Source: a virus. Taken from it: a DNA stretch of 25,641 nt. A program made the position numbers and the translations under genes. The notes under the pieces are model-generated. The model saw only the letters and a program-made list of their open reading frames with translations, was not told the DNA's origin and made no database searches. Location: IMG/VR virus record IMGVR_UViG_3300044712_000419, positions 1 through 25,641 of that record; one strand, 5' to 3'. Below, piece by piece: positions 3,228-25,451 of the stretch (positions are counted from its first letter, which is position 1; each line of letters starts with the position of its first letter).

Positions 3228-4497
3228 TAAGATGGCGGCTGTCATCAAGTTTGTGGCGTTCTCTGTCAAGCAGCTGAAAATCCTGACCTGGTGGACGGCA
3301 GTTTCCCCGTATCAAAATTGGAACGGTATTATAGCCGATGGCGCGATCCGCGCGGGCAAAACTGTTCCGATGGCAATGTCCTATGTTTTTTGGGCAATGG
3401 ACACCTTCAGCGGTCAGAACTTTGCAATGTGCGGTAAAAGCATTGGCGCCTTTAAACGGAATGTCTGGCAGTGGCTGAAACCGGCGCTGCAAAAGCGTGG
3501 CTATCACATTATAGAGGTTCGGTCGACGAACTTCATTACCATATCTTTTCGCGGCAAGACCAACTATTTTTATATCTTCGGAGGCAAGGACGAATCAAGC
3601 CAGGACCTGATTCAGGGCATTACCCTGGCGGGGATATATTTCGACGAAGTTGCACTGCAGCCGGAATCCTTCGTGCTGCAGGGGACTGGCCGCTGCTCCG
3701 TCAAAGGAGCAAAGTTTTGGTTTAACTGTAACCCGGAAGGACCGGAACACTGGTTCAAGAAAGACTGGATTGACAAGGTTGCCGAAAAGAAACTGCTTCA
3801 TATTCATTTCAGTATGGATGATAACCCGTCCCTGGATGATGACACGAAAGCCCGGTACAAATCGATGTACTCGGGCGTTTTCTTTCAGCGGTTCATTCTT
3901 GGTTTGTGGGTCATTGCCAAGGGTGCCATTTATGACATGTTCGGCGCAGCCAATACATATTCGGACGGATCCGGCCCAAACTATGCGCTATGGTACCGCC
4001 GATATTTTGTTATTGATTATGGCACCGTGAATCCTTTCGTGATCTTGGAAGTCATTGAACAGGACAAGAAATACTACGTTGAAAATGAATGGTATTACGA
4101 TTCGAAGGCGCACAATCGCCAAAAAGATGATAACGAGTACACTGACGATTTAATCAAGTTTATCGATAATCGACGTTACGGGTCGGTGATCATCGACCCA
4201 TCAGCGGCTAGTTTCAAGGCGGCTGCACGTAATAAAGGCGTACGGTTCCGCGATGCCGACAATGATGTGTTGGATGGAATCCACTTAACCGCATCGCTGT
4301 TTTCGCTGTCCATACTCAAGATCAATAAAGACAAATGCCCGACACTGATCGCAGAGATCGCATCATACATATGGGACGAAAAGGCCAGTGAGCGCGGCGA
4401 AGAAAAGCCGGTCAAAGTATTCGACCATGCAGTGGACGCGCTCAGATATGCCGTAAAAACAATAGTTAGATACATTCCGATGGATAAGAAGTTCTAG
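3211..4497 (+). CDS. terL: Terminase large subunit (ATPase and nuclease)
   Basis: This is the packaging motor and genome-cutting enzyme of the PBSX-like terminase family. The N-terminal ATPase has a Walker A variant GAIRAGKT at residues 44-51, a Walker B IYFDEV with D145 and E146, and a coupling motif FNCNPEGP at 171-178. The C-terminal RNase H-like nuclease shows candidate metal ligands D269 (VIDYGT), D329 (IIDP) and the FDHAVDALRYA segment with D405 and D409. The length of 428 residues is normal. The start is GTG at 3211, overlapping the small subunit by 17 bases; ATG at 3232 is a shorter alternative. The TAG stop shares CTAG with the stop of the endonuclease gene on the opposite strand. 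Confidence 0.93.
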   Translation: MSQVNSKMAAVIKFVAFSVKQLKILTWWTAVSPYQNWNGIIADGAIRAGKTVPMAMSYVFWAMDTFSGQNFAMCGKSIGAFKRNVWQWLKPALQKRGYHIIEVRSTNFITISFRGKTNYFYIFGGKDESSQDLIQGITLAGIYFDEVALQPESFVLQGTGRCSVKGAKFWFNCNPEGPEHWFKKDWIDKVAEKKLLHIHFSMDDNPSLDDDTKARYKSMYSGVFFQRFILGLWVIAKGAIYDMFGAANTYSDGSGPNYALWYRRYFVIDYGTVNPFVILEVIEQDKKYYVENEWYYDSKAHNRQKDDNEYTDDLIKFIDNRRYGSVIIDPSAASFKAAARNKGVRFRDADNDVLDGIHLTASLFSLSILKINKDKCPTLIAEIASYIWDEKASERGEEKPVKVFDHAVDALRYAVKTIVRYIPMDKKF

Positions 4498-5120
4498 CTT
4501 CGCGTTTTTCGGGGCAGATGAGACAGAAGGTCTTTGCAGACAAGAGAACAGGTTTTCGTGTTTTGATACTTATTGGCAAAATAATTGCCCCCACAAATTA
4601 CACAAACCTTTTCTATATCATCAATGTGCTGATCTCTTCGCCATGCGGCTCTGCATTTATTAGAACAGAATTTGTTAGTTCCAAAGGGTTTCTTCTGAAA
4701 TTCTGTTTTGCATTGCAGGCAAATATATTCGCGTGGTTGCATTTTAGTTGCAACCTTTTTTGCATGTTCACGATGCCAGGATCGGCCTTCTTCCGATTTA
4801 TGCCAAGCTTTTGCTTTAGGGATGACCAAATTAATCATATTGTCACGAATGCGTGTTCTTTCAAGATCGGACAATAATTCACCGTGTACTTTTTGATGGA
4901 CCTTCCCGGGAATAAGATCCAAATTGTCAATTGCGTTATTTAGTCTGTTCTTATCTTTATGATGGACTTCAAATCCATTAGGAATAGGTCCGTTGTGTTT
5001 CATCCAAACATATCGGTGTAAACGAATTCTTTTCCCGTTTATTGGCGAGCTACTCAAATAAAATTTTGTTTTTTTATCCAACCGAAAATTAAAACCATCT
5101 ACTATCAACAAATCTGCCAT
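4494..5120 (-). CDS. HNH homing-type endonuclease with zinc fingers
   Basis: This is the only gene on the - strand. Residues 35-80 form an HNH_3-type nuclease core: HRYVWMKHNG, then EVHHKDKNRLNN with H53, H54 and N62, then the ending IPGKVHQKVHG. The C-terminal half has two Cys pairs of pairs, C134/C137 with C152/C156 and C173/C176 with C191/C195, likely two zinc fingers for DNA binding. Such free-standing genes are selfish elements that cut alleles lacking them. The gene sits between terminase and portal genes, convergent to terL and sharing four bases with it. It is visibly more AT-rich than its neighbours, as expected of an insertion. The ATG at 5120 has GGAGG eight bases upstream. Confidence 0.88.
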   Translation of the reverse strand: MADLLIVDGFNFRLDKKTKFYLSSSPINGKRIRLHRYVWMKHNGPIPNGFEVHHKDKNRLNNAIDNLDLIPGKVHQKVHGELLSDLERTRIRDNMINLVIPKAKAWHKSEEGRSWHREHAKKVATKMQPREYICLQCKTEFQKKPFGTNKFCSNKCRAAWRRDQHIDDIEKVCVICGGNYFANKYQNTKTCSLVCKDLLSHLPRKTRS

Positions 5121-5368: not shown

Positions 5369-6915
5369 GCAGATCAAGATATAAGCCAAAACATATCGAA
5401 TCGCGCGAACATGCCGTTGCGCCTCCGGTCAAAGTCTCTGCTGCCGACAGCTTTCAGAATGTCCTGGGACGATTAGGAGCAGACCAGCCGAACTTGGCCA
5501 GTATGGCCAATTATGTCATGAACAGGTTGACCAGGGACTATAATCTTCTGAATGTACTGTATCGAAACAGTTGGATCATTAAAAAAATCGTGAACATCAT
5601 TCCGGAAGACATGGTGAAAAACTGGGTTGACCTGACCACTGAACTGACGCCGGAACAGACTGACCGATACAAGAAACTGGAGCGGCGGACCAAGGTTAGG
5701 GAAAAGATTCTTGAAGGGTTATACTGGGGGCGTCTTTATGGCGGGGCCGGGGCGCTGATTATGATTGACGGGCATGAAGGCATCTTGGATCAGCCGCTTG
5801 ATCTTGACCAGGTCATGCCGAATTCGTTTTGCGGACTGATGGTGCTGGACCGCTGGACAGGTATTTTCCCATCATCTGAATTAATATCAGATCCGCGCGA
5901 TCCTGAATTTGGCATGCCGAAATATTATGAGGTTCGTGATACAACCAAAGGTACTGCCGCCCGCAATCCAGACAATAAAGGCAGCCTGGTCTTAACGGTG
6001 CATCACAGCCGCATTATCCGATTCACGGGACGGAAGCTGCCGTTTTTGGAAGAGCAGGCAGAAATGTACTGGGGCGCGTCCGAGATTGAACACGTGAAGG
6101 ACGAGCTGGACAAACGAAACAATACCAGCTGGAACATTGCGTCGCTTGTGTTCCAGGCAAACTTGCTGATCAATAAAGTGCAGGGACTCGATCAGATTAA
6201 TTCACTGGCCGACCCGCAAATGCAGCGTGATTTTTATAACGTGAAATCGGCACAGAATCAAATGCGGTCGAATCAGGGCATGATGATGATTGGTCCGGAA
6301 GATGATTTGCAGGCGATTCAATACACGTTTGCGGGCCTGAACGACATTTATGAATCATTCATGATGGATGTGGCCGGCGCGTCAGACATACCTGTCACAA
6401 GATTGTTCGGACGTAGTCCGGCGGGAATGAATTCCACCGGTGAATCGGACCTGCAAAACTATTACGACATGATCAGCCAGCAGCAGGAAGCGGTCCTCAA
6501 GCCGAAGCTGAACAAACTGCTGCCGGTCATGTTCATGAGTGAATTCGGGTATGTTCCTGCAGATCTGGACACAAAGGCGAACCCGATCCGGACAATGTCG
6601 GACAAGGAAGTCGCAGACCTGATTGACAAAAAAGCTGAAGCTGTCGGGAAAGCCTATGATCGTGGCATCATTTCGCAAAAATGCGCGATATCTGAACTGC
6701 ATGAAATGAGCTACAACACGAACATGTTCACATCGATTACGGATGAGGACATCGAGGCAGCTGATGCAACGATGAAAGTCCCCGGAGAGTTCGGGGTAGG
6801 AGGTGACCCGCTCGATGGACTCTTGGGATCTGACTCCTCGAATCGAAACCCGGTACAAACAAAACCTGCAATACCTGATGAACTGGGCCTGGGAACAAGC
6901 AAGCCAGTCAAATGA
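5365..6915 (+). CDS. Portal protein, DUF1073 family
   Basis: This 516-residue protein matches the DUF1073 (PF06381) portal family in length, place and conserved segments: RDYNLLNVLYRNSWIIKKIV near 53-72, IPEDMVKNWVDL, GRLYGGAGALIMIDG around 122-136, and VTRLFGRSPAGMNSTGE near 346-362. The portal ring sits at one head vertex, passes DNA inward during packaging and binds the neck afterwards. The C-terminus is acidic and proline-bearing and overlaps the next gene by about 100 bases. Databases often label this family Acb1-like because of a shared N-terminal domain; I see no paired HxT motifs of a 2H phosphoesterase and call it a portal only. Confidence 0.88.
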   Translation: MSRSRYKPKHIESREHAVAPPVKVSAADSFQNVLGRLGADQPNLASMANYVMNRLTRDYNLLNVLYRNSWIIKKIVNIIPEDMVKNWVDLTTELTPEQTDRYKKLERRTKVREKILEGLYWGRLYGGAGALIMIDGHEGILDQPLDLDQVMPNSFCGLMVLDRWTGIFPSSELISDPRDPEFGMPKYYEVRDTTKGTAARNPDNKGSLVLTVHHSRIIRFTGRKLPFLEEQAEMYWGASEIEHVKDELDKRNNTSWNIASLVFQANLLINKVQGLDQINSLADPQMQRDFYNVKSAQNQMRSNQGMMMIGPEDDLQAIQYTFAGLNDIYESFMMDVAGASDIPVTRLFGRSPAGMNSTGESDLQNYYDMISQQQEAVLKPKLNKLLPVMFMSEFGYVPADLDTKANPIRTMSDKEVADLIDKKAEAVGKAYDRGIISQKCAISELHEMSYNTNMFTSITDEDIEAADATMKVPGEFGVGGDPLDGLLGSDSSNRNPVQTKPAIPDELGLGTSKPVK

Positions 6916-7630
6916 CCCAATCGCATTCCTGCGTGAATTTGTATTCAGCAGGGATTTTTTACGTGAGTGCATGAAAGTGGCCGGCTCGATGGTGACAGCG
7001 GTGCAGACTGACCAGGGGCGAACATGGAGACAGGCAGCTGCCAAGGGAACACGAGGGCGCAGCATATATCTGACTCTTCGACAGGGATTGACACCGCAAA
7101 TGCGCTTGGCCATGGAACGACAGATGACTGAAAACGCAGCGTTGATCAGCCGGACGCCTTTAGATGTCGCTCAATATGTTGTGAATGAAATTCGTGAAAA
7201 GGCTTTTGAAGGGCTGCGTGCCAGCGCAATTACAGATTTGCTTCTGGAGTCGTTTCCATTGGCCAGTCAGAACCGAATCAATACAATTGCCCGGACCGAA
7301 ACAAGCAAGGCCAGTACCATGCTGACAATGGCACAAAGTGAGGATTTAGGGATTCAGTGGTATCAGTGGCGCACTTCCGAAGATAGTCGTGTCAGGTCCA
7401 GTCATTCGCATATGGACGATGTCCTGGTTAGATGGAGTACCCCCCCCAGTCCGGAAAAGCTGATCGGAGAACGTAGCGTCGGCAAATATCACGCAGGCAA
7501 TATTTATAATTGCCGGTGCTATCCGGAACCGGTTATTGATTGGGAATATGTCAACTGGCCACATCGGGTGTATATGGACGGAACGATCCGGCGAATGACC
7601 AAAACACAATTCATGAGGATGGTGGCATAA
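6815..7630 (+). CDS. MuF-like minor head protein
   Basis: ATG 6815 is chosen because a near-perfect TAGGAGGTGA lies at 6798-6807; an in-frame GTG at 6803 falls inside that ribosome site. The C-terminal half has the Phage_Mu_F features: ARTETSKAS at 159-167, WRTSEDSRVRSSHSHMDD at 185-202 and GNIYNCRCYPEPV at 228-240. The protein is a minor head component associated with the portal and is thought to be injected or to help assembly. The N-terminal half is helical and follows the portal directly, with 101 bases of overlap. A run of eight C at 7440-7447 encodes part of STPPS and could be a slippage spot. Confidence 0.88.
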   Translation: MDSWDLTPRIETRYKQNLQYLMNWAWEQASQSNDPIAFLREFVFSRDFLRECMKVAGSMVTAVQTDQGRTWRQAAAKGTRGRSIYLTLRQGLTPQMRLAMERQMTENAALISRTPLDVAQYVVNEIREKAFEGLRASAITDLLLESFPLASQNRINTIARTETSKASTMLTMAQSEDLGIQWYQWRTSEDSRVRSSHSHMDDVLVRWSTPPSPEKLIGERSVGKYHAGNIYNCRCYPEPVIDWEYVNWPHRVYMDGTIRRMTKTQFMRMVA

Positions 7631-11313: not shown

Positions 11314-11322
11314 GTGATCCCA

Positions 11323-12057
11323 ATGGTCAACATGAACGCAGTAGCTCAAAATATAAAAGCGGTGGCCAGTAATGTTGTCCAGGGAGTGAACTCGGCGTTT
11401 ACGGTGGCGGATTTGCTTGCGGTATTCCCGCAGTTTTCCGCCACCAATATTCGGTCCGTCGAAATCAATGCCGGCGGATCCGGATATCATGTGGACGATG
11501 TTCTGACCATAGTTCAGTCCGGAGCCAGCGGCGGAACCGCACAAGTTACTTCTGTTGCGACAGTCGGACTTGTTTCCGGAATCGTCACAGGGATTGCGCT
11601 GCGTGATACCGGAGACAAATATTCGACATTCAATGGACTGGGAACAACAGTTTCACCGTCAGGAGGAACCGGCTGCAAAGTCAATATTACGGCAGCGGTT
11701 TCATTGGTTCCGGATGATCTGCTGGACCTGTTCATTAGCATGGCCACGGCGTCTATTCAAGAGGCCCGCTGGCACAGTCAATGGAAATATGCCATGTGTT
11801 TGTATGTGGCTCATTTTTGCGCCCTGTATTTGCAGACGCAGGCCGGGCCGAACTTGACCGCATCGCAGGTTGTTGCGACAGCGCAGGGCATGTTCCCGAA
11901 ATCATCCAAGTCGGTCGGCGACGTTTCCGTGTCCTACGATACGTCGGCCATCAATAACGACATACCGGGATGGGCTGCATGGAAGTCGACCGTATATGGC
12001 CAGCAGCTGGCGACCATTGCACGCATTGTTGGCCGCGGCGGAATGTATGTCTGGTAA
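11323..12057 (+). CDS. Head-tail connector, DUF4054 family, carrying an inserted beta domain
   Basis: The outer parts match the DUF4054 connector family: FTVADLLAVFPQFS at 26-39 and, after the insertion, VPDDLLDLFISMATASIQEA and ARWHSQWKYAMCLYVAHFCA. These form the helical adaptor ring that docks below the portal. Between them, residues 43-125 are an 83-residue beta-type insertion with GSGYHVDDVLTIV and PSGGTGCKVNIT, a glycine-rich pattern that is not part of the normal family. ATG 11323 is preferred over GTG 11314, which lies inside the ribosome site TAGGTGAT. The gene ends overlapping the next start. Confidence 0.8.
   Translation: MVNMNAVAQNIKAVASNVVQGVNSAFTVADLLAVFPQFSATNIRSVEINAGGSGYHVDDVLTIVQSGASGGTAQVTSVATVGLVSGIVTGIALRDTGDKYSTFNGLGTTVSPSGGTGCKVNITAAVSLVPDDLLDLFISMATASIQEARWHSQWKYAMCLYVAHFCALYLQTQAGPNLTASQVVATAQGMFPKSSKSVGDVSVSYDTSAINNDIPGWAAWKSTVYGQQLATIARIVGRGGMYVW
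11449..11697 (+). other. Inserted GxGYxxDDVLT beta domain, copy 1 (in connector)
   Basis: This 83-residue segment interrupts a DUF4054 connector and is homologous to the segment at 13878-14108 in the sheath gene. It has two half-repeats of the pattern G-G-Y-V-D-V-L-T and ends with SGGTGCKVNIT. About 25 of the first 36 aligned residues are identical to copy 2, whereas third codon positions differ widely. Confidence 0.75.
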
Positions 12058-12640
12058 AAGTGTCAAGGTGACAAAAAAAGGACCCGGCATCGACAAAATA
12101 AAGGCGGATATGCAAGCGATTGCGCGCATGGATGTTTTGGTTGGCGTTCCTCAAACAGGGTCAAGCCGACCAGGAGACCCGATTAATAATGCCGAGTTGG
12201 TTTTTATTCACACACACGGAATCAGGCAAAAGGCAATGCGGGAAGAAATGCAGCCGGAACTTGATAAAGGAACTCCCTACAGCGCGGCACATCAAATGTA
12301 TATTCAGGAACATGGGTCACCGCTTTGGCAGTCACCGCCAAGACCGATCATCGAACCGGCGATTGCTGACGAAACAAATAAACAAAGGATATCACAGCAA
12401 TTGGCGCAAGCGGCAAAGCTGGTTATGGAGGGCAAGGGGGAACAAGCAAAACAACAGCTTCGACGTGTGGGGATGCTTGGGCAAAACATTGTCCGGGAAT
12501 GGTTTACCAATCCTAAAAATGACTGGCCGCCAAATTCGCCGAAAACAATTGCCGCCAAAGGATCTGATCGCCCATTAATCGATACGGGTGAAATGCGAAA
12601 ATCCATAACTTACGTCGTGCGAGGTGATAATCGTGATTGA
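12047..12640 (+). CDS. Neck / tail-completion protein, HK97 gp10-like
   Basis: ATG 12047 overlaps the last codons of the connector gene, so it is read by coupling; the ribosome site is weak. The C-terminal half has features of gp10/virion-morphogenesis neck proteins: SPPRPIIEPAI, then GQNIVREWFTN, WPPNSPKTIAAKGSDRPLID and DTGEMRKSITYVV. The N-terminal part has a basic KVTKKGPG and a VLVGVPQTG strand. The protein of 197 residues should join the head-tail interface. The next gene starts inside its end. Confidence 0.75.
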   Translation: MSGKSVKVTKKGPGIDKIKADMQAIARMDVLVGVPQTGSSRPGDPINNAELVFIHTHGIRQKAMREEMQPELDKGTPYSAAHQMYIQEHGSPLWQSPPRPIIEPAIADETNKQRISQQLAQAAKLVMEGKGEQAKQQLRRVGMLGQNIVREWFTNPKNDWPPNSPKTIAAKGSDRPLIDTGEMRKSITYVVRGDNRD

Positions 12641-13001
12641 TGTGGCCGAAATTGTTGTTGACCCAGATTTCGCCCAGCCTTTTGACGTTTATCGCCAAGC
12701 GGGAAGCTGGGTAGAAGGCAAGTGGGTGCAGGCTCCTGAACAAAAACTTTCATTTTATGGCACGGTCATCGCCGCCAATCAGAAAGATATCATGCAAATG
12801 CCTGAAGGCGACCGCATCAGAGGAATGATGGTTTTTTACGTCGTAACGGACGAAGAGCTGTTTATCACTCGCAATAGCCCGGATGCCGGAACGTCTGACC
12901 AGATTGAATGGAACGGCGAACGATACCGGATATTTCAGCTTTACCCATACAGGGATTATGGTTACTGGAAGGCCATGGCGGCCAGAATGGCGGGTGATTA
13001 A
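12633..13001 (+). CDS. Putative head-closure or tail-completion protein (122 aa)
   Basis: GTG 12633 follows GAGGTGAT at 12621-12628 and overlaps the previous stop; an in-frame GTG at 12624 lies in the ribosome site. The 122-residue protein is beta-rich, with SFYGTVIAANQKDIMQMPEG, VFYVVTDEELFIT and the ending DQIEWNGERYRIFQLYPYRD, where a W-x-G-x-x-Y strand pair is typical of small head-closure proteins. The assignment rests on place between neck genes and on this general pattern, so it is moderate. Confidence 0.6.
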   Translation: MIDVAEIVVDPDFAQPFDVYRQAGSWVEGKWVQAPEQKLSFYGTVIAANQKDIMQMPEGDRIRGMMVFYVVTDEELFITRNSPDAGTSDQIEWNGERYRIFQLYPYRDYGYWKAMAARMAGD

Positions 13002-13595
13002 ATGGCTGATACATTTCTGTCATTAAGCGATTTGAACAGCCTTTTTTTTAAAGTTACCTGTGCCATTTACGGGCTGGACGCATCGGCTCCGGCCAACCAA
13101 TCAAAAATCAGGGAATCCTGGCCGACAGACGGACAGCCCGCGTGGAAAATTCACGATGACGTGACGTTTTTGCGTATCGGCTGGATTGATGATCCTTACA
13201 ACAGACAGCGGGAAGTTCGGTACGAGCCGATTTTTACCGGCGATCCTTCTGCTGAAGACCCTAATAATCTGATTCAACAGATGCAAATGACGAACGTCAA
13301 TCAGATATATTGGACGATTTACGGCCCCAACAGTTATGTGAATGCATGGAAGATCTGGAACCAACTCTATTATCAGTCGATCAAAGAAATGTTGCGGCTG
13401 AAAAATGTGTTTTTGATTCCGGATATCCCAGCGCCGCAACGAGTCCCTGAATCGTTTCAGGGGCAATGGTGGGAACGATGTGACCTGTCGGCCAGATTTA
13501 ACGCACTGACAGTGTTTGAATCGATCATGCCGACGATTAGAACAGTTGCTGTTCAAACAACTGATTCTCAAAAAACTATATCACAGGAGGTGTGA
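13002..13595 (+). CDS. Phage neck/tail terminator protein
   Basis: This 197-residue protein matches the phage neck terminator (LIC_12616-like) family in size, place and the segments VRYEPIFTGDPSAEDPNN and VNQIYWTIYGPNSYVNAWKI, followed by QGQWWERCDLSARFNALTVF. Such proteins cap the tail tube and join it to the neck. The ATG follows the previous TAA at once, with GGGTGAT as ribosome site. It directly precedes the sheath gene. Confidence 0.75.
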   Translation: MADTFLSLSDLNSLFFKVTCAIYGLDASAPANQSKIRESWPTDGQPAWKIHDDVTFLRIGWIDDPYNRQREVRYEPIFTGDPSAEDPNNLIQQMQMTNVNQIYWTIYGPNSYVNAWKIWNQLYYQSIKEMLRLKNVFLIPDIPAPQRVPESFQGQWWERCDLSARFNALTVFESIMPTIRTVAVQTTDSQKTISQEV

Positions 13596-13601
13596 CGATA
13601 C

Positions 13602-14966
13602 GTGTCAACGCTTAATCTGAAACACAACGTGGACGTGATTGTTAATATTGCGCCCCGTGCGGCATTTCGGCGGGCATTTAACCTGATGTGCATTATCGGA
13701 TCGTCGATTATTATTCCGGCAGTAGAACGTGTCCGGCAATATTATTCGACGGACGAGATGCTTTCCGATGGTTGGACAAGTTCGCATCCGGAATTTGTGG
13801 CCGCACAACTTGCGTTTTCTCAAAGCCCTGCTCCGAATCGAGTCATGATCGGCCGGCAAGACCTGACGGCAAGTCAGATCCGGACCGTAACAATCAATGC
13901 AGCGGGGACCGGCTATCACGTCGATGACGTGCTGACTGTCGTTCAGGCCGGAGGAAGCGCAGGAACACTCAAGGTTACCGAAGTAAATTCAGGCGCCGTA
14001 ACAGGTGTCGAAATATTGACGCCGGGGACCGGATATGCGCTTGGAACCGACTTGGTAACATCCGTCGCTCCAACTGGGGGCACTGGTTGCAAAATTGACA
14101 TTACAGCCATCGGGGAATCCCCTCTTGTGGCATTCCAGGCATGCCGGGCAGCTGACATCGAATGGTACGCAGGCATGGTCTGCGGCATCAAAAACGATTA
14201 CGCATCCATCGAAGCCATTGCGGCATATGTGGAAGCGGCAATGCCCACAACCGTGTTCGGGTATAATACTGACCAGGCATCGGTCATCAGCAGCGCCACC
14301 ACGGATATCATGAGCGTGCTGAAAGCGGAACTTTATCGCCGGACCATCGGTCAGTATTCGACGGATCCGGATCAGGACGATGCCATTGCGGCGATTCTCG
14401 GATACGCCATGGGAGCCAACAATGGAACGGTCAATTCGGCCTATACGCTCGATTTCAAGCGTAATGTTGGACTCCTGACCGAAGACGTTACCGCCACCCA
14501 GTTCGGTTACATCACCGGCAAAAACGGCAACGTTTATATCAACCGGGGCACCTATTACAACTGGTTCCAAAACGGGACCATGTCGGACGGTTCTTGGTTT
14601 GACGAAGTCATTAACCTGGACAAGCTGGCCAATGACATTCAACTGAATGTCGCCGACCTTCTGAACCAGGTGCCGAAAGTTCCTCAAACCGAAGCCGGAG
14701 TAAACCAGATTGTTTCGGTTATCAATTCAGCGTGCGCCCAGGCAGTTAAAATCGGATTCATTGCTCCAGGTCGCTGGACGGGTCCGACCATATTGAACCT
14801 TAATTATGGCGATACGCTGCCGCAAGGATACCTGGTTCAATCGGAACCGATTGCCGACCAGGCGCAGGCCGACCGTGACGCACGCAAAGCCCCGCCGATT
14901 TATGTGGCCGTCAAATTGGCCGGAGCCATCCAGCAAGTCACGATCCGCGTCGACGTGAACCGGTAA
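13602..14966 (+). CDS. Tail sheath protein, DUF3383 family, with inserted beta domain
   Basis: Presence of this DUF3383 sheath makes the phage a contractile-tailed one. AGGAGGTGT at 13585-13593 supports the GTG start. Residues 1-88 match the family N-terminus up to NRVMIGRQ, and GESPLVAFQACRAADIEWYA around 171-190 continues the family pattern. Between them residues 93-169 are a foreign beta domain with GTGYHVDDVLTVV and TGGTGCKIDIT, homologous to that in the connector gene. The C-terminal half has FGYITGKNGNVYINRGTYYN, and the ending QQVTIRVDVNR is the conserved last strand that links to the next sheath subunit. Length 454 is larger than usual by the insertion. Confidence 0.88.
   Translation: MSTLNLKHNVDVIVNIAPRAAFRRAFNLMCIIGSSIIIPAVERVRQYYSTDEMLSDGWTSSHPEFVAAQLAFSQSPAPNRVMIGRQDLTASQIRTVTINAAGTGYHVDDVLTVVQAGGSAGTLKVTEVNSGAVTGVEILTPGTGYALGTDLVTSVAPTGGTGCKIDITAIGESPLVAFQACRAADIEWYAGMVCGIKNDYASIEAIAAYVEAAMPTTVFGYNTDQASVISSATTDIMSVLKAELYRRTIGQYSTDPDQDDAIAAILGYAMGANNGTVNSAYTLDFKRNVGLLTEDVTATQFGYITGKNGNVYINRGTYYNWFQNGTMSDGSWFDEVINLDKLANDIQLNVADLLNQVPKVPQTEAGVNQIVSVINSACAQAVKIGFIAPGRWTGPTILNLNYGDTLPQGYLVQSEPIADQAQADRDARKAPPIYVAVKLAGAIQQVTIRVDVNR
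13878..14108 (+). other. Inserted GxGYxxDDVLT beta domain, copy 2 (in tail sheath)
   Basis: Residues 93-169 of the sheath protein resemble the insertion in the connector (11449-11697), with the shared GYHVDDVLT core and a shared GGTGCK near the end. It also has the second half-repeat PGTGYALGTDLVTSV. It lies between two parts that are adjacent in ordinary DUF3383 proteins, so it should be exposed on the outer face of the sheath. Confidence 0.75.
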
Positions 14967-15878: not shown

Positions 15879-16034
15879 ATGGCCCCGGTCATGGCAAATC
15901 TATGGAAGCAACATGAAACTTGGGACGGGACATATACAATGGATGATCTTCTGGATATTCACGAAATGATAATGGTTAAGAATGAGAACGAACGCAGAGC
16001 CCGCGAAGCCGCAGAAAGGGAGGCCGGTCAATGA
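15879..16034 (+). CDS. Tail assembly chaperone -1 frame extension (G-T/E' equivalent)
   Basis: This frame is -1 to the chaperone and is open from before the slip site to TGA 16032-16034. The part after about 15868 looks like real protein: VMAPVMANLWKQHETWDG, TYTMDDLLDIHEMIMVKN and a charged helical ending NERRAREAAEREAGQ. Slippage would yield a chaperone fusion of about 195 residues, as in lambda GT and P2 E+E'. The residues between the slip site and 15868 look less natural in this frame, so independent translation from ATG 15879 is an alternative, though its ribosome site is weak. The stop overlaps the start of the tape measure. Confidence 0.6.
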   Translation: MAPVMANLWKQHETWDGTYTMDDLLDIHEMIMVKNENERRAREAAEREAGQ

Positions 16035-17893
16035 GCGCAAACATAATCAATGAATATCTGGTATCTCTGGGATACGCGGTAGACTCTGCGTCGTTCCAAA
16101 AACTGAATCAGTCATTAAACACGGCTCAAAAGGCTGTAGAGACAGCTACGACAGGAATGACTAGAAGTGTCGGGATGGCCGCTATGGCTATTACCGGTTC
16201 TTTGGTTGCCGTCAATTCAGCGACGGTTGGGTTGCTTGATACTTTGGCCAAAGCAGATATGGGATATCAGAAAATGGCACTGCGAATGTGGATTTCAAAG
16301 CAGTCAGCCAAGGAACTCAAGACAACCATGGACGCCCTGGGGGAATCCATGGAAGATATTGCCTTTATTCCGGAATTGCGTGGGCAGTTTAATCAGCTGC
16401 TCACGCAAGGAAGGGGCATGCAGCCGCCAGATGAATATGCACAGCAGATGCGAGATATTCGGTCGATCGGATTTGAATTTAAACGTATGAAACTGGAAGC
16501 CAGTTATGCTCTGGAATGGGTCGGATATTATTTATTCAAATACTTGGAAGGCCCTATCCGGAATATTAAAAAATGGTTGTCCGAGTTCAATGACAATATC
16601 ACAAAAACGATGCCGCAATGGACAGAGAAAATAGCACGTGTACTTGCCAGCATCATGAATGTCGGCATGGCCTACTTTCGATTGATGAAAAATGTTTTTG
16701 CTGTTATGACAGATATTTGGAATTCATTCCCTAGGGGGGTCCAAGTTGCACTAGGAGCATTCGCCGTTCTTGGTGCGGCAATAATTTCAGGGCCTTTTGG
16801 GGTTGCGCTGTTAACAATCGGAGCAATTTTGGTATTACTGGAAGATTTCTTTGGGTATATTGATGGGCGCGAATCATCAAAAACACTGGCCCCGATGTGG
16901 AAATGGCTGATCGACATGTATGAAAAGATCAAGAACTCCAAAGCTCTGGAAGAATTCACAAAACAATGGAAAAAATTAAAAGAGCAGGTTGACGAATTAC
17001 GGGAATCCTTAGTTGAGCTTTTTTTGAAAATAAAAGAGTTTATGGGGATTACGACTGAAGACACTACAAACGCTTTTACGTGGCTTCTCGAAACGTGGCT
17101 GAAAATATTGACGAATATTCTTAAAGTCATAACAGCCATTGCCTGGTTTTGGTCTAAAATTTTCAAAGGTGATTCGGATGCTATTTTCAAAGAGTTTGAT
17201 AAATTTCTGGAAGACATGCAAAAAAGATGGAACAATTGGAAACCCTTTGGAACAACAAGTTCTGGTGGATTTAGGGGAGAACCGACATATGAAATGTCGG
17301 CAGATACTTCACAATTAACTGGTGAAAAAAACGGACTTGATGAAGGTTTTTTGTCAAAGCTGAATCGATTGGCAAAAGCGCAAGGCAGAACACTCAACAT
17401 CGACGACGGTTTTCGAACTTATGCGGAACAAGCGGCGTTATGGGAACGATCTGACAAATCAGGGAAATGGGTTGCAGCACCCGGGACAAGTCGACATGAG
17501 GCTGGTTATGCCATTGATGCAAAATGGGCTGAAAGTATGACTGATGAAGAACTGGCGCGATATGGATTATGGCGACCAATGGACTATGAGCCGTGGCATG
17601 TTGAACCTATCGAAACAAAAGGAAAATCAACAGCGGAATTAATAGCCCTTAGAAAGTCAGGTCGGTCAGCTACGGCAGCAGGCGGTGCAGGGACGAATTC
17701 AGCATTTGCACCGACTGGCTCGATAAACAACGGCGTACAAATAACAAACCATCTTGTAGTAAGCCTTCCTGCAGGTTCTGATGCTGACGGGATTGCTAAT
17801 ACGATTGTTGCAAAACTTGAACAGTTTCAAGGGCGTGCCAACAATATCACGATTACGCGCCAAATGCGAGATCTTCAGGGGGTGAATGCATAA
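16031..17893 (+). CDS. Tape measure protein with C-terminal M15 peptidase domain
   Basis: The first ~430 residues are helical and amphipathic, with a hydrophobic stretch at about 238-271 (LGAFAVLGAAIISGPFGVAL), as in tape measures. This sets tail length and may enter the cell envelope. Residues ~435-528 form a VanY/M15-type D-Ala-D-Ala carboxypeptidase or endolysin-like domain: DDGFRTYAEQAALW, then PGTSRHEAGYAIDAK with H489 and D496, then EPWHVEP with H523, the expected zinc ligands. It would open peptidoglycan during injection. A linker rich in Ala/Gly and a beta-like ending (residues 565-620) follow. At 620 residues it is a short tape, so a short tail is expected. The ATG overlaps the chaperone extension stop. 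Confidence 0.87.
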   Translation: MSANIINEYLVSLGYAVDSASFQKLNQSLNTAQKAVETATTGMTRSVGMAAMAITGSLVAVNSATVGLLDTLAKADMGYQKMALRMWISKQSAKELKTTMDALGESMEDIAFIPELRGQFNQLLTQGRGMQPPDEYAQQMRDIRSIGFEFKRMKLEASYALEWVGYYLFKYLEGPIRNIKKWLSEFNDNITKTMPQWTEKIARVLASIMNVGMAYFRLMKNVFAVMTDIWNSFPRGVQVALGAFAVLGAAIISGPFGVALLTIGAILVLLEDFFGYIDGRESSKTLAPMWKWLIDMYEKIKNSKALEEFTKQWKKLKEQVDELRESLVELFLKIKEFMGITTEDTTNAFTWLLETWLKILTNILKVITAIAWFWSKIFKGDSDAIFKEFDKFLEDMQKRWNNWKPFGTTSSGGFRGEPTYEMSADTSQLTGEKNGLDEGFLSKLNRLAKAQGRTLNIDDGFRTYAEQAALWERSDKSGKWVAAPGTSRHEAGYAIDAKWAESMTDEELARYGLWRPMDYEPWHVEPIETKGKSTAELIALRKSGRSATAAGGAGTNSAFAPTGSINNGVQITNHLVVSLPAGSDADGIANTIVAKLEQFQGRANNITITRQMRDLQGVNA

Positions 17894-23870: not shown

Positions 23871-25451
23871 ATGGCTGGAAAAGCTTTAGTCCCTCAGGTT
23901 GACGGCGGAAACGATTTAGGAACAGCCGCAAAAAAATGGCGCAAAGCTTATGTCCAAGAAATTCAAGCTGATAATCTAGGTACAGCTGCTTTTGTTGATA
24001 CAACCGATTTAGCGCTTGCAGATGCGGGGGTTACGGGCGGAAACACCCATGCGCATCACGATGGAGACGGCGGACAAATCGACCACGTTGATTTGGCGAA
24101 TAAAGGTACGAATACCCATGCGCAGATCGATTCCCATTTATCAAGCACGTCGAATCCACATAATACAACGGCGTCACAAGTTGGAATCGTTGACGCATCC
24201 TTTTCAGCAAGAGGGATTATTCAGCTCGCAACGTTGGCAGAAGCAGCAACGGGGACGGACCCTGATAAGGCTGTGACCCCGGCTGGTTTAGGAGCCGCTT
24301 ACGCTTTAAAAACGTATGTTGACCAAGCAATCGCTGCGTTAATTGATGGAGCACCCGCAGCGTTGGATACTCTGAACGAACTTGCCGCAGCGCTCGGAGA
24401 CGATGCGAATTATGCAGCAACAATTACAACAGCTTTGGGGTTGAAGGCCCCAATCAACAACCCGTCATTTACAGGGACGGTGACTCTTCCTGGCGCGCCT
24501 GCTGCAGATTTACAGGCTTCTACAAAGAAGTATGTAGATGATGCAGTGGGAGGAATAGTCGGTGAAAATGCCGGGATGGTTAAATGGTTTGCTGCAAACA
24601 GCGCCCCTTCCGGATACTTGAAAGCGAACGGGTCCTTGATTTCGAGAGTTACTTATTCTGCGCTGTTTGCTGTTATAGGAACTACGTTTGGTGGGGCATC
24701 GGTTACAGACAAGTCAAGAATTACTGCTCCGACAATAACTTTCCCGTGGGGAACATACAGCGGAGCTGCAAACATCAATGACAACAATCCGGCGACTTAC
24801 TGGGTTGCGAATACGTCGACTGGGTCAAGCTTTACAGCTATTCAATATGATTTAGGAACAGCCAAACTGCTCTCTAAAGTATATTCAGCTAATATATTTT
24901 GGAGCGTCGCGGATACAGTGACATTGACGCTTGAATACTCTGTTGATAATTCTAACTGGTATTCTTTTGGTTCTAATTATCAGTTTGCAATCACTAACAA
25001 CGCATCAAACGTAACGTGTTCCGCCGGAAGCAGTGGAATAACTGCAAGGTATATCAGATTAAGAGTGACGGGTTTTGGGCAAAACGGGTACTTGAACGTC
25101 GGCGATTTCAATGTTTGGGAAGGCGAAGATACCGGGACAACTTTTGCTCTTCCCGACATACGCGGAGAATTCGTTAGAGGATGGGACGACGCTCGAGGAA
25201 TAGATAGCGCAAGAACGTTTGCGTCATCTCAAACAGACGCGTTTCAAGGACACATTCACCAGTTGTATGGCAGAACTGTTACTTGGTCTGGGTCCGGTGA
25301 TTATATGTTGGGAAGTATTCAAACTCCCGAAGCAAGCTTGCCGGCAGACAGAATGCGGGGACCGTTGGCTTACGGGACTAGTGGAACTCCAAGAACGGCT
25401 GCTGAAACAAGACCGAGAAACGTTGCTCTATTAGCGTGTATTAAATATTAG
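23871..25451 (+). CDS. Long tail fibre with collar domain containing a discoidin-like insertion
   Basis: AAAGGAGGGAGT sets ATG 23871. Residues 1-230 are the usual fibre shaft: DLGTAAKKWRKAYVQEI, then AQIDSHLSSTSNPHNTTASQ, LAEAATGTDPDKAVTPAGL, and NNPSFTGTVTLPGAP followed by STKKYVDDAV. The collar starts at about 236 (MVKWFAANSAPSGYLKANGS) and ends with TFALPDIRGEFVRGWDDARG at 424-443, HIHQL and ETRPRNVALLACIKY. Residues 278-418 interrupt the collar with an F5/8 type C (discoidin)-like sugar-binding domain. The gene is AT-richer in that part, which suggests acquisition. It likely determines host range. Confidence 0.85.
   Translation: MAGKALVPQVDGGNDLGTAAKKWRKAYVQEIQADNLGTAAFVDTTDLALADAGVTGGNTHAHHDGDGGQIDHVDLANKGTNTHAQIDSHLSSTSNPHNTTASQVGIVDASFSARGIIQLATLAEAATGTDPDKAVTPAGLGAAYALKTYVDQAIAALIDGAPAALDTLNELAAALGDDANYAATITTALGLKAPINNPSFTGTVTLPGAPAADLQASTKKYVDDAVGGIVGENAGMVKWFAANSAPSGYLKANGSLISRVTYSALFAVIGTTFGGASVTDKSRITAPTITFPWGTYSGAANINDNNPATYWVANTSTGSSFTAIQYDLGTAKLLSKVYSANIFWSVADTVTLTLEYSVDNSNWYSFGSNYQFAITNNASNVTCSAGSSGITARYIRLRVTGFGQNGYLNVGDFNVWEGEDTGTTFALPDIRGEFVRGWDDARGIDSARTFASSQTDAFQGHIHQLYGRTVTWSGSGDYMLGSIQTPEASLPADRMRGPLAYGTSGTPRTAAETRPRNVALLACIKY
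24702..25124 (+). other. Discoidin-like (F5/8 type C) domain inserted in the collar
   Basis: Residues 278-418 of the long fibre have the discoidin landmarks: NINDNNPATYWVANTST, AIQYDLGTAKLLSKVY, LTLEYSVDNSNWYSF and ARYIRLRVTGFG. The neighbour fibre runs through the same place with only a short loop, between the ISRTAYSRLWAF and TFRLPDLRGEFLRG segments. Confidence 0.75.

Follow-up and report, generated by a model that had tools for sequence, protein, structure and literature searches.

The contractile tail sheath and the head-to-tail adaptor encoded in 25,641 bases of DNA from an uncultured bacterial virus (IMG/VR virus record IMGVR_UViG_3300044712_000419; the whole of this stretch is referred to as the window) are each interrupted by a copy of the same segment of about 80 residues. 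We favor a reading in which the two segments represent one and the same mobile β-module, distantly related to domain I of the T4 sheath protein gp18. The module would be plugged in frame into an insertion-tolerant loop of its host protein, the host would still assemble, and the particle would display the barrel, in repeated copies on sheath and neck, as a surface for docking. Taken as a whole, this reading is given a probability of about 0.5. The preliminary description of the window had proposed that the two proteins carry the same adhesive or accessory-binding domain, an interpretation that is partly supported by the present analysis.

Two virion proteins share one module

Both host proteins are encoded on the plus strand, in a head–neck–tail block of the E217/Pam3/XM1 kind that comprises cement, major capsid, DUF4054 adaptor, neck, collar-type, terminator, DUF3383 sheath, and KPP10_Orf10 proteins. 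The adaptor (247 residues; positions 11314–12057) is of the E217 gp27/Pam3 type and matches PF13262 over residues 130–237 (E 5.9e-20; 71.9 bits, over the cut-off of 23.9). Copy A of the module occupies its residues 43–127 (positions 11440–11694), between an FPQF motif and the DUF4054 domain. The sheath (454 residues; positions 13602–14966) matches PF11863 (E 9.6e-62; 209.9 bits, over the cut-off of 34.9), with its best DUF3383 stretch at residues 142–450, as well as the tail sheath family phrog_205 (E 6.4e-90), and holds copy B at residues 90–169 (positions 13869–14108). At E ≤ 1, the two proteins have just one further Pfam match, to Rhomboid_2 at adaptor residues 121–213 (E 0.028, below cut-off).

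A BLASTP comparison of the two proteins aligned copies A and B with 46 identities in 87 positions (87 bits, E 4e-24), which confirms the homology that had been claimed for these segments. The identical core GYHVDDVLT and the common GGTGCK were recovered as described, and so was the agreement over the first 36 aligned residues, put at about 25 (25/36 in the BLASTP alignment, from IRSV/IRTV on). The Smith–Waterman score of A against B was 223, and the maximum in 2000 shuffles was 65; these shuffles and the profile controls exclude chance or low complexity as the cause of the likeness. A hidden Markov model (HMM) of the module, built from 11 copies including A and B, scores A with 107 bits and B with 110 bits, the only two matches in the window at E ≤ 1e-3.

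Across 80 aligned codons, 46 residues but just 17 codons are the same, and third positions agree at 34%. The estimated rate of nonsynonymous substitution (dN) is 0.36, against a rate of synonymous substitution (dS) of 5.3, which is saturated. Thus the two copies have long been separate, and their protein sequence is under constraint. This bears out the wide divergence at synonymous positions noted earlier, and supports the accompanying proposal that the copies are old or were acquired separately and have been held by selection on the protein.

Insertion sites and module-free relatives

Relatives that lack the module confirm that each host family is interrupted at one clean point. In the sheaths of AB434P2 and of two loci from our searches (L004 and L005; further handles of this form are used in the same way), a few residues precede the stretch ending in QACR, where the window protein has the module, and in the DUF4054 proteins of AB434P2, IFTN9, and Magia, a few residues follow the FPxF motif at the corresponding place. 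Among 100 distinct sheaths, 70 hold 18 residues or fewer at the site, 21 hold the module, and nine hold something else, and the module is present in nine of 112 distinct DUF4054 proteins (the window proteins being included in both counts); since the sets are non-random and ranked by the module-bearing window protein, these proportions are not natural frequencies. The sets combine loci retrieved by module queries or by core patterns with three phage records. Each group of identical proteins contributes one entry, and the sheath count covers proteins with a match to both the N- and the C-terminal part near the site. The possibility that the module is a constant part of both families is ruled out by the 70 sheaths with so short a stretch.

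These 70 sheaths also bear on a role as cement, in which the barrel would touch neighboring subunits, stiffen the sheath and the neck, and be kept for the sake of particle stability. Stability is among the roles suggested for added sheath domains in a passage of PMC9230969, but so many sheaths have next to nothing at the site that we consider such a role quite unlikely.

Both sites are permissive, since unrelated inserts also occupy them in relatives. In IFTN9 and Magia, the sheath site is filled by a larger and unrelated insert, and another nine of the 112 DUF4054 proteins (L098, L179, L263, L286, L296, L298, L304, L324, and L327) carry a different insert of about 70 residues, recognized by eye, at the adaptor site, mostly with a GxGIPxGT-like motif. 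Such occupancy would suit a passenger, that is, a tolerated insertion of little use that is swapped by recombination at permissive loops, and so would the sheath-core tree, on which the distribution of the module requires 8 gains or losses, with supported branches forcing no fewer than 4 of them. The contrast between dN and the saturated dS of the two copies, however, indicates constraint on the protein sequence, and a mere passenger seems very unlikely. The sites are points in the DUF3383 sheath and the DUF4054 adaptor at which domains are exchanged in natural evolution and assembly is preserved.

Three sheaths (L095, positions 5617–7215; L252, 4148–5743; and L325, 6503–8071) have inserts of about 166–168 residues that read as the first half of a module, then a whole module, then the second half. 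The nested arrangement in L095 covers model positions 3–52, 1–79, and 34–79.

Probable distant relation to domain I of T4 gp18

A distant relationship between the module and domain I of gp18 is well supported by profile comparisons. When 27 modules (that of phiM9 being left out) were compared by hhalign with domain I (residues 98–188) of gp18 from eight Straboviridae, the probability was 92–95, with E values of 6.8e-8 to 2.7e-8, and the best match covered 75 columns, nearly the whole domain, with a score of 44.9. As controls, 60 column-shuffled profiles scored at most 16.5, the reversed profile 9.5, and non-overlapping stretches of gp18 at most 13.0. Against the whole of gp18, the match of the module profile falls at residues 100–187 (probability 89.8). 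Among sheaths scanned singly with the module profile, seven of the eight from Straboviridae match in the domain I region, with independent E values of at most 0.0022 (for 11 sequences). In the T4-like sheath of phiM9, the module lies at residues 112–173, at about the position of domain I.

The Pfam family Gp18_dom_I (PF22639) matches 14 of 28 modules, and 12 other families match one module each at E ≤ 10. In a record-wide search, this family was found at positions 13884–13988 in copy B (E 0.0014, 13.5 bits) and at positions 11455–11583 in copy A (E 0.0045, 11.7 bits). Both copies stay below the Pfam cut-off, and the module is therefore called a distant relative, not a member, of Gp18_dom_I.

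A profile of 28 modules, phiM9 included, was also compared with the PDB, where the sheath chains 9x3p (E 0.016, residues 102–165) and gp18 3fo8 (E 0.027) came first, and SH2 domains came next, from E 0.27. On their own, these matches are weak. In this alignment, the glycine that opens the GxGY signature of the module falls at position 107 of the 9x3p chain; under another numbering, it may be the G106 of PMC3004832, section 12 of which states that G106S, S175F, and A178V in domain I inhibit fiber retraction.

The module and domain I have in common six strands (counted for the module in the sheath model), a length of some 80–90 residues, and insertion into a sheath. They differ in that the helix described for domain I is unseen in the sheath copy of the window, and in that the module, here within a DUF3383 sheath, also occurs in adaptor, collar, terminator, major tail, and baseplate proteins. 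The E217 paper (PMC10329688) mentions that domain A of the sheath is conserved in T4 but lacking in the pyocin sheath.

Predicted structures

The sheath was folded with 49 relatives, giving a mean predicted local distance difference test (pLDDT) score of 91.1, and of 87–96 in the ten-residue blocks of the module. In this model, copy B has six β-strands, at residues 93–100, 110–113, 122–129, 132–140, 148–155, and 164–170. The sheath model matches the XM1 sheath (Z 34.6, root mean square deviation (rmsd) 2.8, 344 residues aligned), and the adaptor model, folded with 47 relatives, matches E217 gp27 (Z 10.7, rmsd 4.2, 127 aligned), the Pam3 adaptor (Z 10.5), and the XM1 neck protein (Z 9.1). The window thus shares the adaptor and sheath folds of these phages. 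It differs from E217 in that gp27 is a chain of 155 residues, to which only residues 160 onward of the window adaptor match, and gp27 is not among the PDB matches of the module profile.

Distribution over other viruses and virion proteins

The module is not particular to the window phage and is common to many other contigs. It took four alignment-query scans to reach more relatives, each of them yielding a list of the best 80 loci. Scans with each whole protein gave one and two loci, and one genome-contig scan gave two; no relative came out of a viral scan with just the sheath module as query, and tblastn with the two modules against 50,697 phage records matched two and four records, none covering 80% of the query. 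A search for the domain in other phage proteins had been suggested in the preliminary description, and copies were indeed found in sheath, adaptor, collar, terminator, major tail, and baseplate proteins.

Within the gene block, L094 and L172 have the module in a collar-type protein (102.7 and 99.1 bits) in addition to the sheath. The L094 protein aligns to the collar-type neck protein of the window (positions 12624–13001, plus strand; phrog_939, E 2.9e-26), which is without the module; its name derives from gene order and a weak match to PF22755 E217_gp28 (E 0.051, below cut-off). In L255, the module is found in the adaptor, the terminator, and the sheath. The L255 terminator (PF23961, E 2.2e-8) aligns on both sides of the module to the neck/tail terminator of the window (positions 13002–13595, plus strand; PF23961, E 9.2e-11), likewise without the module.

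Among the matches listed from outside the gene block, the closest likeness to the sheath module is shown by the copy in the major tail protein of L010 (phrog_9522; 64% identity), a contig that is probably a siphophage. Further copies are in a Baseplate_J protein (L106), in T4-like sheaths (L006, L055, and L096), in a head closure protein of type Hc3 (L003), and in a head–tail adaptor of type Ad1 (L035). Weak matches to the module itself are also given by PHROG profiles of other structural proteins, for example those of head closure Hc2 (phrog_460; E 9e-4 and 8e-5) and of the baseplate wedge (phrog_438; E 2.7e-5). The presence of the module in unrelated families shows that it has moved between host proteins. 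The contig with the module-bearing major tail protein, L010, also has a GIY-YIG gene with NUMOD3 motifs (positions 737–1648).

Sheath and adaptor could be compared in 92 distinct pairs, of which 62 are without either insert and 20 have the sheath module; the class of other inserts was assigned by insert length and by eye. The DUF4054 module accompanies the sheath module in six of these 20 pairs (the window, L095, L255, L301, L310, and L316), and it occurs without the sheath module in none of the 92. When adaptor, collar, and terminator copies are taken together as neck copies, they are present in 8/20 pairs with the sheath module versus 0/72 without it (Fisher p 1.4e-6). For the loci of two alignment-query lists only, the numbers are 5/16 and 0/69 (p 1.3e-4).

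Origin of copies A and B

The tree evidence for movement of the module between host proteins is weaker. The module tree was made from 43 copies (at least 66 model positions and at least 45 bits, with identical copies taken once) and 79 columns. With few columns and weak support, it does not tell how often the module moved between proteins. Copies A and B are not neighbors in this tree; by path, B is nearest to the sheath copy of L094, and A to the sheath copy of L252. When all eight DUF4054 copies were forced into one clade, the tree was not rejected (p 0.094). The same constraint on the sheath copies gave a borderline p of 0.047 with 17 rows, the fragments L251 and L318 being counted as sheath, and a p of 0.0037 with the 15 rows that remain when they are not.

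The preliminary description had left the choice between duplication and separate gain to a tree of all copies. Although A and B are not sisters, their sisterhood was not rejected by the approximately unbiased test (p 0.345), so that, on a tree short of columns, a duplication inside the lineage of the window phage, with one copy made from the other, is neither demonstrated nor refuted on this count. Saturation of the synonymous sites between A and B speaks against it, and so do the pairwise identities, which are highest between B and the L010 major tail module (68% over 77 columns) and between A and the L252 sheath module (64% over 78 columns). On balance, duplication appears unlikely.

Possible role of the module

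Domain I of T4 gp18 protrudes and binds the baseplate and the retracted fibers, as described in section 12 of PMC3004832. For this reason, docking is favored over other roles: the module would be exposed on the outside of the particle and would bind fibers or accessory proteins. The adhesive role raised earlier is one option, and the T4 precedent favors docking of the phage's own fibers or baseplate. According to a passage of PMC10329688, twelve copies of the gp27 adaptor sit on the portal of E217, so that the adaptor module would occur twelve times per particle if the window phage is alike. A more tentative idea, to which we give rather little weight, is that barrels of the gp18 domain I type are a mobile docking module of tailed phages at large, and that, in phages with copies on both sheath and neck, these form one continuous track, which keeps the fibers folded against the tail as far as the neck.

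Adhesion would mean that the barrel binds sugars of the host surface weakly, as proposed for Ig-like domains, to the benefit of several structural proteins. The occurrence of the module on many kinds of virion protein, including the major tail protein of L010, would fit this idea; major tail proteins are a class in which Ig-like domains are common, going by a passage of PMC8718954, and a passage of PMC9230969 proposes such a role for added sheath domains. However, gp18 domain I, the closest domain whose biology is known, binds phage parts in the account of PMC3004832, and families of carbohydrate-binding or Ig type match singly and weakly (CBM_5_12, Big_6 with E 0.042, and Big_11 with E 1.5, each in one of 28 modules). 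Adhesion to sugars is thus regarded as doubtful.

Several observations weigh against a docking module related to gp18 domain I. With respect to kinship, no module bit score seen reaches the 27-bit cut-off of Gp18_dom_I, the lone sheath module scoring 16.7 bits; among ten module-bearing records, none has a match over this cut-off and three (L010, L099, and L252) are without a match at E ≤ 10, and two of 14 control genomes match at E ≤ 10 too. A profile of four sequences gave a PDB list led by SH2 domains (E 0.78), with 9x3p at E 1.4, and among the sheaths scanned singly, that of KVP40 and the more distant ones of K490 and S-RIM2 are without a match to the module profile. With respect to fold, the preliminary description had looked to structure prediction of both proteins; copy B has its six confident strands, but copy A is poorly modeled. 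The adaptor model has a mean pLDDT of 76.3 and only 53–81 per block across the module, so that for copy A the putative barrel is taken from homology. With respect to co-occurrence, L099, L274, and L280 have the DUF4054 module and no sheath within the contig stretch covered, and the association of neck and sheath copies comes down to four independent pairs on supported branches, with a sign test that is not significant, so that shared descent could explain it. Finally, the precedent for function is known for T4 only.

Comparison with known decoration domains

Added sheath domains and promiscuous Ig-like domains are already known. The module resembles the Ig-like (Big/FN3) decoration domains in being a β-domain that is added to many structural proteins and has a proposed accessory role. 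It differs from them in that no Ig family is found in the two window proteins at E ≤ 1, and in that the module profile points to gp18 domain I. Evseev et al. (PMC9230969) describe how β-domains are attached, on the side facing away from the tube, to a sheath core that is conserved, which resembles the situation seen here; the phiM9 sheath, found here to carry a copy of the module, is listed with 5+ domains in a table of that paper. As a difference, the term DUF3383 is absent from its main text, and here the same module is found in neck proteins too. PMC10684548 describes the shuffling of domains in neck passage and other proteins. A GD in the module consensus would make a cradle-loop (RIFT) barrel a conceivable fold, and RIFT-related domains in tail and neck proteins are mentioned in the same paper. 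In the literature searched, mainly under open licence, we found no description of the module across sheath and neck, nor of a link between gp18 domain I and neck proteins.

So far, gp18 domain I has been named and modeled as a sheath domain. If the link proposed here is true, it would be a member of a family of barrels that, in the manner of Ig-like domains, pass from one virion protein to another, unrelated one. The like decoration of neck and tail in some phages would then have a testable explanation, and a set of annotations reading "virion structural protein" would become a recognizable domain.

Other genes in the window

A fibre-like protein (positions 23871–25451) matches the phage Collar family at residues 235–279 (profile positions 1–45), followed by an F5/8 type C domain at residues 294–407. 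As judged by eye, the end of the Collar match resumes after the F5/8 type C domain, which looks like a domain insertion too. The protein encoded at positions 16031–17893, which we take to be the tape measure, has a VanY carboxypeptidase-like domain at residues 441–501. An HNH_3 endonuclease gene is located on the minus strand at positions 4494–5120, between genes that are presumably those of the large terminase and the portal.

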